Assembly (NCBI RefSeq): GCF_000495475.1
Contig: NZ_ASGZ01000002.1
Span: forward strand, 124,001 to 188,000
DNA length: 64,000 bases
Origin: Candidatus Halobonum tyrrellensis G22
GTDB lineage: Archaea > Halobacteriota > Halobacteria > Halobacteriales > Haloferacaceae
Direction of reading: 5' to 3'
Positions within the stretch are counted from its first letter, which is position 1; the number at the start of each line of letters is the position of its first letter. Positions 39,365-49,666 of this stretch are shown piece by piece. Below the pieces are notes generated by a model that was given only the letters and a program-made list of their open reading frames with translations, was not told the origin of the DNA and did no database searches. The translations under genes and the position numbers were made by a program.

Positions 39365-41590
39365 TCAGTACAGCGGGTCGACGAACGACTGTTCGAGGAT
39401 CGTCCCGTCGCCGCCGCAGACGATCTTGGGGACGGACGGGTCGCTCGTGACGAGCGTCCCTTGGAGGTTCTTCGAGGGACCGGTGTACGTCCCCGTCCAG
39501 CCGCCGATCTCGCGTTCGAACACCTCGCCCGACCCGCCGCCGATCAGGCCGCGGTCGTCGTCGCGCGCCAGCGAGTAGCGCGCGTTGCCGCCGAGTTTCT
39601 GCTCGGTCCAGACCGCCCCGTTGTAGCGGAACAGCCGGCCGGAGCCGCCCGAGACGGTGATGTCGTCCTCCGCGACGACGGCGACGTCGTACAGCGAGAC
39701 GCCCGCGCCGTCGATGCCGAGCGTGCTCCACGTCGCGCCGCCGTCGGTCGAGCGGAACACGGTCGCGTTGTCGTCACAGACGTACACCCCCGAGTCGTGG
39801 GTCGTGACGCCGCGGATCGTCGACCCGTTGCCCGGCTTGACCGGGGCGGACCACGTCGGTCCGTCGGCGCCGTACCGTCCGACGAGCACCTCGCCGGAGC
39901 CGTTGACGAGGTACACCGACTCGTCGCCGGCCGCTCCGCCGACGGCGACGTCGGTCCACGTGCTCGTCTCGCCCGCGGGGGCGGTGTAGTCGGTCGAATC
40001 GCCGGCGGCCACGTCGTACAGGCCGAGTTCGCCCGACCCGCCGGCGGCCCAGAGGTGGTCGCCCTCGTCGGTGACTGCGGCGCCGTAGAGGTTGTTGCCC
40101 GCACCCGAGGGACCGTGCGCGTCGACGACGCCCCACCCGTCGTCCGTCCGCGCGACGACGCGGCCCGCCCCGCCGACGGCGTACGGTCCCGCCGCGGTCT
40201 CGGCGAGTGCGAACAGCGTGACCGACACGCCCGCGTCGACCGCCGACCACGACCGGTCGGCGAGACGCTCGACGGACACCTCGGTCCCGCTCACCGAGGT
40301 GACGAGGTCGGCCGCCGAGCCGTCGGTCACCGAGAACCCCCGTACTGCGCCGCCGTAGCGGAAGTCGTCGGCGTCGGCGGAGCCGCCGACGCTCCCAGTC
40401 ACCTCGAACGCGTGCCCCGCACAGCCGCACGTCTCCTCGACCGACTCGGTGGCGTCCGCGTTCGGTCCCTTCCGGACCCTCGTGTCGTTGCCGAACGCGT
40501 AGTCGACGCGCGACTCCGACGTCGTCTCGACGGTGAGCGTGTCGGGGTACGCGTCGAACGACCCGCGCTCGTAGACGTAGCCCGCGTTCCCCGCGACCGT
40601 GTCGGGGTACGCCTCTCTCGCGTCGAGCGTGAGGTCGCGGAGCGTCTTGCTCGCGTCGAGACCGGCCGCCGTCCAGCCGTCGTCCGTCCGCCGGTAGACG
40701 ACGCCGCCCTCGCCGCAGGCGACGACCACGCCGTCGGCACTGTCGACGCCGCGGACGGCCGCCCCGCCGGGCCGGGCCGCCGCCCACGACGAGCCGTCGT
40801 ACTCGAAGACGTGGCCCGCCGACCCGACCGCGGTTACCCCTCCGTCCGCGCGGACCGTCACGTCGTACAGCGGCGAGCCGAACCCGTCGGGACCCACCTC
40901 GGTCCACGTCGACCCGCCGTCGCGCGTCCGGTAGACCGACCCGGTCGCGTCGGCGAACCAGCCGCGACTCGCGTCGACCATCTCCAGTGCGTGGATGGTG
41001 TTGCCGCCGTTCGGCGAGACGGCCGTCCCCCACTCCATCCCGCCGTCGCGCTTCCGGCCCGTGAGGAACACCCCGCCGCCCGTGACGAGTGCGACCCGTT
41101 CGTCGCCGGCCGGTCCCATCGCCGCGACGTCCCGGACCGTCGACCCGAGTCCGTTCGGCTTCGAGTGGTCGGTGAACTGCTCGTCGACCACGTCGTAGTG
41201 GCCGACCACGCCCGCCTCGCCGCAGAGCCACAGGTTCCGGCCGTCGGCGGTCGCGTCCGCGCCGTAGAAGCTCTTCGACTGGGCGGTGAGACCGGCGTCG
41301 AGGACTCGCTCGAACGTCGGCGGGTCGTCGCCCGCGCGCCGCGCGAGGACGTCGCCGTTCGCCGCGGCGGCGTACGCGCCCTCCGCCGTCGCCGCCACCG
41401 CGCGGACCGACTTCCCCGTCTCCGACGCCACCCGCTCGAACCCGGCCGCAGCGCGGGTCGTCCCCGCCGTCGCGAGTCCCGCCGCACCCGCGACGCCTGC
41501 GCCGAGCAGTTTGAGTGTGTTCCGCCGACTCACGCTCTGCCGTTCGGAGGGGTCTGACGACACGGACGGGAACCCGAACGGTGTTCGCAT
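39365..41590 (-). CDS. Tat-exported duplicated beta-propeller protein (YCF48/BNR-like)
   Basis: 741 residues from the ATG at 41588-41590. The N-terminus has SRRNTLKLLGAGVAGAAGLATAGTTRAAA, a Tat signal with Ala-rich cleavage site and no lipobox, so it should be released. The rest is two homologous halves: KSFYGADATADGRNLWLCGEAGVVGHYD (about 105-132) against NNLYGAAVTDEGDHLWAAGGSGELGLYD (about 499-526), and VYRTRDGGSTWTEVGPDGFGSPLYDV against VFRSTDGGATWSTLGIDGAGVSLYDV. Asp-box-like 'S/TxDGGxTW' motifs mark blades, indicating two propellers in one chain. A Cys pair in TCGCAGH sits between them. Binding to a surface or glycan ligand is plausible; no enzymatic site is evident. Confidence 0.85.
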   Translation of the reverse strand: MRTPFGFPSVSSDPSERQSVSRRNTLKLLGAGVAGAAGLATAGTTRAAAGFERVASETGKSVRAVAATAEGAYAAAANGDVLARRAGDDPPTFERVLDAGLTAQSKSFYGADATADGRNLWLCGEAGVVGHYDVVDEQFTDHSKPNGLGSTVRDVAAMGPAGDERVALVTGGGVFLTGRKRDGGMEWGTAVSPNGGNTIHALEMVDASRGWFADATGSVYRTRDGGSTWTEVGPDGFGSPLYDVTVRADGGVTAVGSAGHVFEYDGSSWAAARPGGAAVRGVDSADGVVVACGEGGVVYRRTDDGWTAAGLDASKTLRDLTLDAREAYPDTVAGNAGYVYERGSFDAYPDTLTVETTSESRVDYAFGNDTRVRKGPNADATESVEETCGCAGHAFEVTGSVGGSADADDFRYGGAVRGFSVTDGSAADLVTSVSGTEVSVERLADRSWSAVDAGVSVTLFALAETAAGPYAVGGAGRVVARTDDGWGVVDAHGPSGAGNNLYGAAVTDEGDHLWAAGGSGELGLYDVAAGDSTDYTAPAGETSTWTDVAVGGAAGDESVYLVNGSGEVLVGRYGADGPTWSAPVKPGNGSTIRGVTTHDSGVYVCDDNATVFRSTDGGATWSTLGIDGAGVSLYDVAVVAEDDITVSGGSGRLFRYNGAVWTEQKLGGNARYSLARDDDRGLIGGGSGEVFEREIGGWTGTYTGPSKNLQGTLVTSDPSVPKIVCGGDGTILEQSFVDPLY

Positions 41591-44483: not shown

Positions 44484-45458
44484 CTACTTGTGTCCGGCGC
44501 TGGCTTCGTGGTACGACCACACCGTCTCCATCGCCCGCACGAACCCGTCGAGGTCGATCGACGTCGTCTCCCACTCGCGCTCGCACGCGCGTTCGAGTCG
44601 TCGTGCGCGCTCCCGGCCGATCGTCCGCTCGACGCTCGCTTCGCGGATCCGCTCGGCGAACAGCGGGCGATAGCTCGGGTCGTCCCGCGCCCGAAACACG
44701 TCCGACGACGAGACGACGCCGTCGTCGACGGCTCGAACGACGACGCCGTTCGCCAGGTCGCCCTCCGAGAGTTCCCGCTCCCACGTCGTCAGCCAGTTGC
44801 CGATCCGGCCGAGCGGTTCGACCAACTCGATCGCCTCCCGGAGTTCCGGCTCGTCGTTCGGGTCGACCCCGGGCGAACAGATCAGGTCGACCGTCGCGAG
44901 CGCGTCCATGCACATGGTCGACGACTGCGCGCGCAGACACTCGTCGTAGTCGGCCGACTCCGGGTCGTCGGCGACGGCGACCGAGTGTCGCTGCGCCTCG
45001 GCGCTGCCGGCGAGCGCCTCGTGGAGGGTCGCGCGGTAGTACTCGAAGTTGGGCGCGTCCGCGAGACGGTCGACGAGCGCCGCCCACGCGTCGGCGGCCA
45101 CCCGGACCGCGGGTTCGTCCGCCGGGCTGCCCGGTTCGGGCGGTCCCTCCCGCGGGACCCGTGCGGCTGCCTCGAAGGCGGTGTAGTCGGACCGCCGGTC
45201 CGAGAGGTCGTTGAGCGCGGTGACGTAGACGCTGACGAGCAGGCGTCCCTCGTCGGCCACGTCCTCGTACCGACCGGGCACCGAGTCGAGTCGGAACTCC
45301 GGCAGGACCGCGTCGAGCCACCCCCACATGTAGCGGTCGCGACAGGCGAACGCCGACCGGTAGTCCTCGACGAGTCGTTCGACGACCGGCGGCAGACTGC
45401 GAGCGCGCAGGTCGTCGGGTGCTGGTGCCGTCGTCCCCCCGCGACGGTGTGATGACAT
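44484..45458 (-). CDS. Class I terpene-synthase-like protein
   Basis: 324 residues. The helical fold shows YVTALNDLSDRRSD with a (N/D)DxxD-type metal motif at Asn83-Asp84-Asp87. CLRAQSSTMCMDALATVDL (174-192) parallels the terpene-synthase 'YLxxRxxTxG' helix and places Arg176 45 residues before Asn221. GNWLTTWERELSEGDLAN (220-237) supplies Asn221-x3-Thr225-x3-Glu229, the NSE/DTE metal triad, followed by the usual 'GDxxN'. A late W-S-x-x-x-x-S segment resembles the family's C-terminal 'W..T.RY', though the RY is absent. Length fits microbial single-domain cyclases. It may cyclise or ionise a prenyl diphosphate, or be a non-catalytic relative. No prenyl-transferase gene is nearby. Confidence 0.68.
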   Translation of the reverse strand: MSSHRRGGTTAPAPDDLRARSLPPVVERLVEDYRSAFACRDRYMWGWLDAVLPEFRLDSVPGRYEDVADEGRLLVSVYVTALNDLSDRRSDYTAFEAAARVPREGPPEPGSPADEPAVRVAADAWAALVDRLADAPNFEYYRATLHEALAGSAEAQRHSVAVADDPESADYDECLRAQSSTMCMDALATVDLICSPGVDPNDEPELREAIELVEPLGRIGNWLTTWERELSEGDLANGVVVRAVDDGVVSSSDVFRARDDPSYRPLFAERIREASVERTIGRERARRLERACEREWETTSIDLDGFVRAMETVWSYHEASAGHK

Positions 45459-45707
45459 CTCGGTCGTGAGTTCGATTGGTGACGTATAACCTGTCCGGCC
45501 GGTATGCGGAACGTGATAATCGGGACGTGGTATGCACGGCGTCGGCTGGCGGGGACAGGCCGGTTCGCACCCCCGGTCGGGGGGTCAGGAGGGGACGAGG
45601 GGGGTCCGGCGCGCGCGTGGGTCAGGTCCGTCGAACCCGTCTCCCGGTCGCGCCCGACGGACCGGTGCGCGTTCTGGCCGCCCGTTCGACCGCCTCTCCC
45701 CCAACGC

Positions 45708-48595: not shown

Positions 48596-49666
48596 TCAGA
48601 TCCCGAGGTATCCCGCGTTCGGGATGACGCCGGCGAGGTAGAGCACGCCGACGAGGAACATCACGACGGCGATCGCCATCGCGGGCGGGTCGACGTGGGT
48701 GCCGGAGTGCGAGTAGAACACGCGCTGGGTCACCTCGCCGATGACGCCCGTGAGCGCGCCGACGCCGCCCGCGACCAACAGCGTGACGAGGGGGCTGCCG
48801 ACGGCGGCGGCGGCGACCACCGCGCCCGCCGAGCCCATGAGCGTGATGTGGTGGGTGACGGGGATCTTCTCGACGCCGAGGTTCAAGAACAGCAGGCTCA
48901 TCGCCGAGATGGCGTACCCCATGAAGATGCTCCCCGTCTCCAGCCAGATGTAGCCGCCGAGTATCCCGCCGACGAGACCGATCGCGGTGACGCCCGCCCA
49001 CTCGTACTGGTGGGGGAGCCACGGCTCGGTCGCGGGCCTGACGCGCTCGACCCCGCCGTCCGTCTCGACGCGCTCCTCGCCGCGTTCGAACGGCGACATG
49101 TCGAGCAGCCCGTCACCGGCGGGGCTGCCGATCAGCGGGTAGTCGAAGACGACGCGCGCGAGGACCGCGGTCAGGAACACCGACAGCGCGATCCCGTCGG
49201 TGGGAACGCCGAGCGCCGACGAGACCTGGCTGATCAGCATGCCGAGCGCGCCGAAGGCGGCGCCCACCGCGAGGATGTCGGGTTTCGTCCCGAACGCGTA
49301 CGCGATGTCCTTCCCGAAGTGGTACCCCTCCTTGGGACCCATCTCGGGGTACTTCTTGCCCGCGTACGCGCTCGCGGCGACGCCGCCCGCGAACGCGATG
49401 TGGGGGCCGGTGACCGCGCCGAACCCGATGACGCCGGTCACGTTCACCGCGAGCGCATCCGCCGGAACCCCGTCGACCCCGGCGACCGCCCGCTGGAGGA
49501 TGTCGATCCCCTCGCCGAGGAACACGAGGAACCCGGTGAACACGAACGCCGGCAGCGCGCCCAGCGCGGCGCCGAGTGCGCCGCCGGCGAGGGCGGTGAT
49601 GAACAGCACCGCGAACGCCTCGAAACCCATGTCCAACAGCGGGACCTGGGCGACGAGTCCGTACAT
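48596..49666 (-). CDS. Predicted membrane partner of glycerol kinase (putative glycerol uptake protein)
   Basis: 356 residues with about eight to nine hydrophobic segments, for example AFAVLFITALAGGALGAALGALPAFVFTGFLVFLG, FGALGMLISQVSSALG, AGVTAIGLVGGILGGYIWL and MAIAVVMFLVGVLYLAGVIP. A conserved-looking motif GVIGFGAVTGPHIAFAGGVAASAYAGKKYPEMGPKEGYHFGKDIAYAFGTKP (about 77-128) lies in a loop. It starts three bases after the glpK stop, so it is co-transcribed with glpK. Haloarchaeal genomes place a similar protein beside glpK where bacteria have the GlpF facilitator; from that context I infer a role in glycerol uptake. It is not an aquaporin: no NPA motifs are visible. Confidence 0.75.
   Translation of the reverse strand: MYGLVAQVPLLDMGFEAFAVLFITALAGGALGAALGALPAFVFTGFLVFLGEGIDILQRAVAGVDGVPADALAVNVTGVIGFGAVTGPHIAFAGGVAASAYAGKKYPEMGPKEGYHFGKDIAYAFGTKPDILAVGAAFGALGMLISQVSSALGVPTDGIALSVFLTAVLARVVFDYPLIGSPAGDGLLDMSPFERGEERVETDGGVERVRPATEPWLPHQYEWAGVTAIGLVGGILGGYIWLETGSIFMGYAISAMSLLFLNLGVEKIPVTHHITLMGSAGAVVAAAAVGSPLVTLLVAGGVGALTGVIGEVTQRVFYSHSGTHVDPPAMAIAVVMFLVGVLYLAGVIPNAGYLGI

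Follow-up and report, generated by a model that had tools for sequence, protein, structure and literature searches.

P0001, a 324-residue protein of Candidatus Halobonum tyrrellensis G22 encoded in a stretch of 64,000 nucleotides (the window), is a diverged member of an archaeal family that is almost certainly class I terpene-synthase-like by descent. This family is sizeable, widespread and publicly unannotated. P0001 itself is, on balance, probably a Mg2+-dependent enzyme that ionises GGPP or FPP and became neofunctionalised within the family.

Gene and motif organization

The P0001 gene occupies positions 44484..45458 of the minus strand (stop codon included) and its translation runs from an ATG at 45458 without internal stop. 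A TATA-like gttata, read from the sequence, precedes the ATG by about 26-31 bases (45484..45489, minus strand) and would be compatible with a leaderless haloarchaeal promoter. All motifs discussed below are likewise on the minus strand. The original prediction had recognized in this gene a class I terpene-synthase layout composed of N83-D84-x-x-D87, R176, N221-x3-T225-x3-E229 and EGDLAN, and each of them was found at these positions in the 324-residue protein. Metal motif 1 (45186..45212) is lengthened by D91 and reads N83-D84-L-S-D87-R-R-S-D91 (i.e. NDxxDxxxD). Metal motif 2 (44772..44798) is a near-invariant NSE-type triad, N221-x3-T225-x3-E229, in which R228 directly precedes E229. R218 (44805..44807) is located three residues before N221, and the triad is followed by an E232-G233-D234 tail (44757..44765) that is conserved in the family. 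R218, R228 and D91 were additional to the features first described. The RY pair had been reported missing and is indeed absent from the C-terminus of P0001; the family C-terminus reads H317...G322-x-K324.

When P0001 was shuffled 20,000 times, the two metal motifs alone, with loose spacing, were present in 2.4% of the shuffles, so that this pair by itself is weak evidence. The four motifs together appeared in none of them (0/20,000) and their combination is therefore not trivial. The highest 19-residue hydropathy mean in P0001 was 1.1 and no membrane helices were found.

Profile and fold evidence

The sole Pfam match of P0001 was Terpene_syn_C_2 (PF19086), a profile for class I terpene synthases of bacteria and fungi. 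The match spanned profile positions 4-175 of 199. A search against terpene-synthase profiles had been suggested as a check on the original prediction, and its outcome was mixed: the E-value was 6.7e-5, while the score of 23.2 bits remained 0.5 bit under the gathering cut-off of 23.7. The paralogue on C13, with 65% identity to P0001, scored 24.3 bits and thus passed the cut-off. Likewise, 28 of 47 diverse family members matched PF19086 at E <= 0.01, some of them above the cut-off. None of the NCBIfam terpene-synthase models matched, and direct PDB sequence searches, with either the single sequence or an alignment as query, returned nothing useful. A profile of the 47 diverse members had a single PDB sequence-profile match, Sat1646 (E 0.033).

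An AlphaFold2 model of P0001, built with 24 natural sequences, was all-helical (mean pLDDT 88.1, pTM 0.88). Residues N83-D87 close model helix 62-87, in agreement with the predicted location of NDxxD at a helix end, and N221-E229 are near the end of helix 200-231. A helix break was observed at residue 183, between helices 171-182 and 184-193. The best 50 matches listed by Foldseek against the PDB were all class I terpene synthases (50/50), 25 of them at E <= 0.001. The comparison called for by the original prediction thus gave no unrelated fold, and the model displays the alpha-helical isoprenoid-synthase bundle. That the two metal motifs may face one cavity is supported by their helix positions and by the whole-fold matches. 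TM-scores on the query were moderate among the listed PDB matches (0.44-0.60), the highest being that of BjKS, the ent-kaurene synthase of Bradyrhizobium (PDB 4xlx; 0.60 on the query, 0.66 on the target, Foldseek probability 1.00). Like P0001, BjKS is a small single-domain class I protein, yet the two share only 16% identity and BjKS needs ent-copalyl diphosphate.

The same superfamily fold is found in trans-isoprenyl diphosphate synthases, and P0001 could be a diverged enzyme of this kind, active in chain elongation. A second model, of a Haloarcula vallismortis relative, displayed lower confidence around helix H and matched many farnesyl/geranylgeranyl diphosphate synthases; all of its listed matches were terpene synthases or prenyl diphosphate synthases and hence fell within the superfamily. 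Chain elongation is nevertheless very improbable: a second DDxxD is absent and an NSE-type triad is present in about 146/146 family members, the 50 listed fold matches of P0001 were terpene synthases only, and the source genome encodes two polyprenyl synthases away from P0001, with strong matches to PF00348, a profile that P0001 did not match in the Pfam search.

Family distribution and conservation

Of 391 Halobacteria genomes searched by profile, 120 contained the family; a search of the wider phylum added genomes that lie outside the order and represent three further taxonomic families. Judging from this phylum context and from the PAS kinases encoded beside them, the relatives from outside the order (L178-L192) would fit Methanosarcina-like and related methanogens. 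Among them, L186-L191 form a highly divergent group, with a stem of 2.65, in which extra residues are inserted behind the motif 1 DD. Family copies with in-frame TAG stops (G634:C231 and G634:C55) occur in a single genome of this phylum; they are possibly pseudogenes, or TAG may encode an amino acid there, a usage known from some methanogens. The family was also found on six plasmid records of named haloarchaea, each time annotated 'hypothetical protein', and no relatives occurred in phage records. The source genome holds three family copies: P0001, its 65%-identical NDxxD paralogue, situated upstream of a protoglobin-MCP (HemAT-like) gene (G000:C13, L025), and a 29%-identical DDxxE copy belonging to another subfamily (G000:C17, L026).

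Conservation was counted in 149 distinct family sequences. Positions D84, N221, T/S225, W226, E229, D234, R218 and R228 were near-invariant. In motif 1, D84 was present in 144/144 and D or E87 in 143/144 sequences; in motif 2, N221 was found in 145/146, T or S225 in 146/146 and E229 in 145/146. The neighbouring positions were similarly preserved, with R or K228 in 145/146, R218 in 138/146, E232 in 140/145 and D234 in 145/145 members.

No description of this archaeal family was found in the papers searched. Terpene clusters detected by antiSMASH were reported for Halomicroarcula, with no mention of this gene in the text consulted (PMC8600319), and structure-based mining of non-canonical terpene synthases concerned other families with other motifs, from bacteria, fungi, protists and plants (PMC11234867). 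The original statement that descriptions of archaeal terpene cyclases are rare is justified, with the reservation that a preprint cited in PMC12797696 (Samusevich et al., bioRxiv 10.1101/2024.01.29.577750) claims in its title that archaea make terpenoids. Relatives may be covered there, and the novelty of the present finding is lowered.

Candidate diphosphate sensor

R176 (44931..44933) had been taken for the Arg that precedes the NSE triad in the family, and this part of the layout did not hold. The residue is indeed located 45 positions ahead of N221. However, the closest (65%) paralogue has Ala here and the next relatives have Gln, Arg being present in only 47/149 sequences. Its location is therefore a coincidence, and conservation rules it out as the diphosphate sensor. 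What stood of the claim of a class I terpene-synthase layout in an archaeon is the profile match, the predicted fold and the family-conserved metal sites.

Compared with the PF19086 enzymes, P0001 is devoid of both the RY pair and the usual bacterial type of sensor, i.e. a helix-G Arg that precedes the NSE Asn by about 46 residues. A helix-G sensor is not strictly defining, however, as Sat1646 from Salinispora (PDB 7e4n/7e4o) and Stt4548 from Streptomyces, both class I pimarane-type diterpene synthases, carry theirs on helix H (PMC9814573). The sensor of Sat1646 is Arg220, with Asn182 as linker and Tyr183 as effector at the G1/2 break; Stt4548 displays the same layout with Ser198 as linker and I199 as effector (PMC9814573). 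In our profile alignment, R-L-S-N of Sat1646 was aligned with R218-I-G-N221 and its SGD with EGD, which places R218, N221 and D234 in register. The two proteins thus have in common the R-x-x-N start of helix H, with an Arg three residues before the NSE Asn, and the GD tail. Position 181 is Asn in 122/132 members outside the NDxxD clade (see below) and Thr in P0001. Given this register and the model helix break at 183, R218 on helix H is the likely diphosphate sensor, and T181 and M182 (44913..44918) would be the probable linker and effector at the G1/2 break, by analogy with Sat1646 and Stt4548. R228 is the equivalent of Sat1646 R230, the Arg before the last NSE residue, which also lines the Mg2+ B site (PMC9814573).

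The NDxxD clade

Motif 1 is DDxxE in the family at large, whereas NDxxD is fixed in one five-member clade that includes P0001. Outside this clade, D83 was found in 132/132 and E87 in 116/132 sequences; inside, N83 and D87 occurred together in 5/5, and the first carboxylate of the Asp-rich motif is consequently absent. All five members also have D91, which gives NDxxDxxxD, and all have kept D84, D87, N221, T225, E229, R218 and R228. Other family-conserved positions were altered (Q151, Y158, N181 and Q214), changes that agree with the ancestral reaction having been lost as much as with a new one having been gained. In the tree, the clade had a support of 100/100, a stem of 1.18 changes per site and inner branches of 0.10-0.38; pairwise dN/dS values within it ranged from 0.24 to 0.54. 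Such a burst of change followed by constraint favours a changed function over decay, and the most plausible interpretation of the clade is a neofunctionalised branch with an altered substrate or product, rather than a decaying copy. In genus g6 (L064, L118 and L119), a gene for a large protein lies downstream of the NDxxD gene in the same orientation; by eye, this protein appears to be S9 (TolB-like propeller) peptidase-like.

Sat1646 retains the first Asp of motif 1 (Asp88), in contrast to the Asn of the P0001 clade. Since Asp88 binds Mg2+ A and C (PMC9814573), N83 may well weaken or change catalysis. P0001 may be either a new cyclase or a non-catalytic relative, as first proposed, and both readings stand because of this substitution. 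A non-catalytic relative would have kept the fold and the diphosphate/metal pocket, lost ionisation and taken a prenyl-diphosphate-binding or regulatory role. The Asn at an otherwise invariant position, the further changes at family-conserved positions and the long stem all point in this direction. Yet the remaining diphosphate/metal site is intact in all five members, E87 changed alongside D83 to produce NDxxDxxxD, which is a catalytic pattern in UbiA prenyltransferases (PMC7414894), and dN/dS in the clade is below 1; we consider the loss of catalysis unlikely, although it deserves to be kept in mind. That P0001 itself turns over a prenyl diphosphate is the reading to which we lean, with modest confidence.

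The NDxxDxxxD pattern is shared with motif 1 of the UbiA-superfamily prenyltransferases, enzymes that use Mg2+ in the ionisation of prenyl diphosphates (PMC7414894). UbiA proteins are integral to the membrane and have a second DxxxD motif, whereas P0001 is predicted to be soluble and carries the NSE triad. We tentatively suggest, as a rather doubtful extension, that the soluble clade ionises GGPP or FPP through this UbiA-like motif with a changed outcome, either a new terpene or a transfer of the prenyl group, the product of the wider family being perhaps tied to PAS sensors. It is improbable that P0001 is a soluble prenyltransferase instead of a cyclase, handing the prenyl group to an acceptor after UbiA-like ionisation. 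Besides the motif 1 pattern of the five members, cryptic aromatic prenyltransferase activity of some terpene cyclases, reported in PMC7414894, would agree with such a transfer; on the other hand, P0001 lacks membrane helices, its motif 2 is not the DxxxD of UbiA, no UbiA protein was among the 50 fold matches listed and no acceptor gene was found near P0001.

Proposed reaction and substrate

In its mode of working, P0001 most likely resembles a class I terpene synthase of the Sat1646 layout, and would be a soluble, halophilic, single-domain (alpha) class I enzyme of the divergent archaeal family. A linear prenyl diphosphate (GGPP or FPP) would be held in the cavity of the alpha-helical bundle, with Mg2+ bound between N83/D87 (together with D84) and N221/T225/E229. 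The diphosphate would be contacted by R218 and R228, and the roles of linker and effector at the helix G1/2 break would fall to T181-M182. Ionisation would then free pyrophosphate and leave an allylic cation to be cyclised, rearranged or quenched.

Sat1646 and Stt4548 use copalyl diphosphate. This substrate is unlikely for P0001, contrary to Sat1646 and BjKS, as neither the N nor the C domain of SQHop_cyclase had a match in the source genome. The presence of polyprenyl synthases and the absence of SQHop_cyclase make a linear C15/C20 diphosphate the likelier substrate. A prenyltransferase-repeat neighbour at the Halobellus locus L113 was considered as a class II cyclase partner and discarded, its best match being a glycoside hydrolase family. 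Because of the first residue of motif 1, the sub-cut-off Pfam score and the missing RY pair, we classify P0001 as a diverged family member rather than a proven terpene synthase.

Genomic neighbourhood

P0001 is surrounded by genes for DUF1810, EamA, SMR transporter, GDSL lipase and Orc1/Cdc6-like ATPase proteins. DUF1810, EamA, the SMR transporter and the GDSL lipase were rejected as operon partners, none of them being conserved beside relatives. Elsewhere in the window, 39365-41557 (minus strand) encodes a large protein whose start is twin-arginine-like (SRRNTLKLLG) and which contains two propeller stretches of the YCF48/BNR type, and 48596-49666 (minus strand) a hydrophobic protein of 356 residues without Pfam match, which adjoins a glycerol-kinase-type (FGGY) gene.

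The neighbourhoods of relatives were compared in 82 loci dereplicated at 75% identity. In 36 of these, the family gene adjoins a PAS-type sensor/regulator (BAT/HTH_10 or histidine kinase) or a FilR1-like regulator. PAS-type proteins accounted for 32/175 ORFs next to the family gene and for 3/412 located farther away (Fisher P 5e-15, a value that is indicative only because the loci are not fully independent). Their arrangement was variable (upstream, divergent or downstream), and they were also present at the non-haloarchaeal loci L178, L186-L188 and L190. PAS/GAF/BAT-HTH_10 regulators or PAS histidine kinases were encoded directly beside L113, L008, L001, L114, L116, L164, L178, L186, L190 and others. 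HalOD1 proteins, recorded in 14 loci, often accompanied the PAS-type neighbours. The P0001 locus itself displayed no PAS-type, FilR1-like or HalOD1 neighbour. One subfamily (L061, L062, L065, L071, L144, L166 and L170) had its own arrangement, with a metallo-beta-lactamase-fold protein divergent upstream and a cystathionine gamma-synthase-like gene downstream.

Significance

Characterised class I terpene synthases come from plants, fungi, bacteria and some viruses and, to our knowledge, hardly from archaea, even though archaea produce much GGPP for lipid synthesis. A widespread family of halophiles and methanogens that is recorded as 'hypothetical protein' would represent a new source of terpenoid chemistry that could be probed in cultured Haloarcula. 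The NDxxD clade is in effect a natural test of which part of the metal site is truly required for class I chemistry. Neighbouring PAS sensors recur in the family and would give a first clue to the purpose of archaeal terpenoids; if the link is true, they hint at an archaeal terpenoid that is made under, or acts in, signal control.
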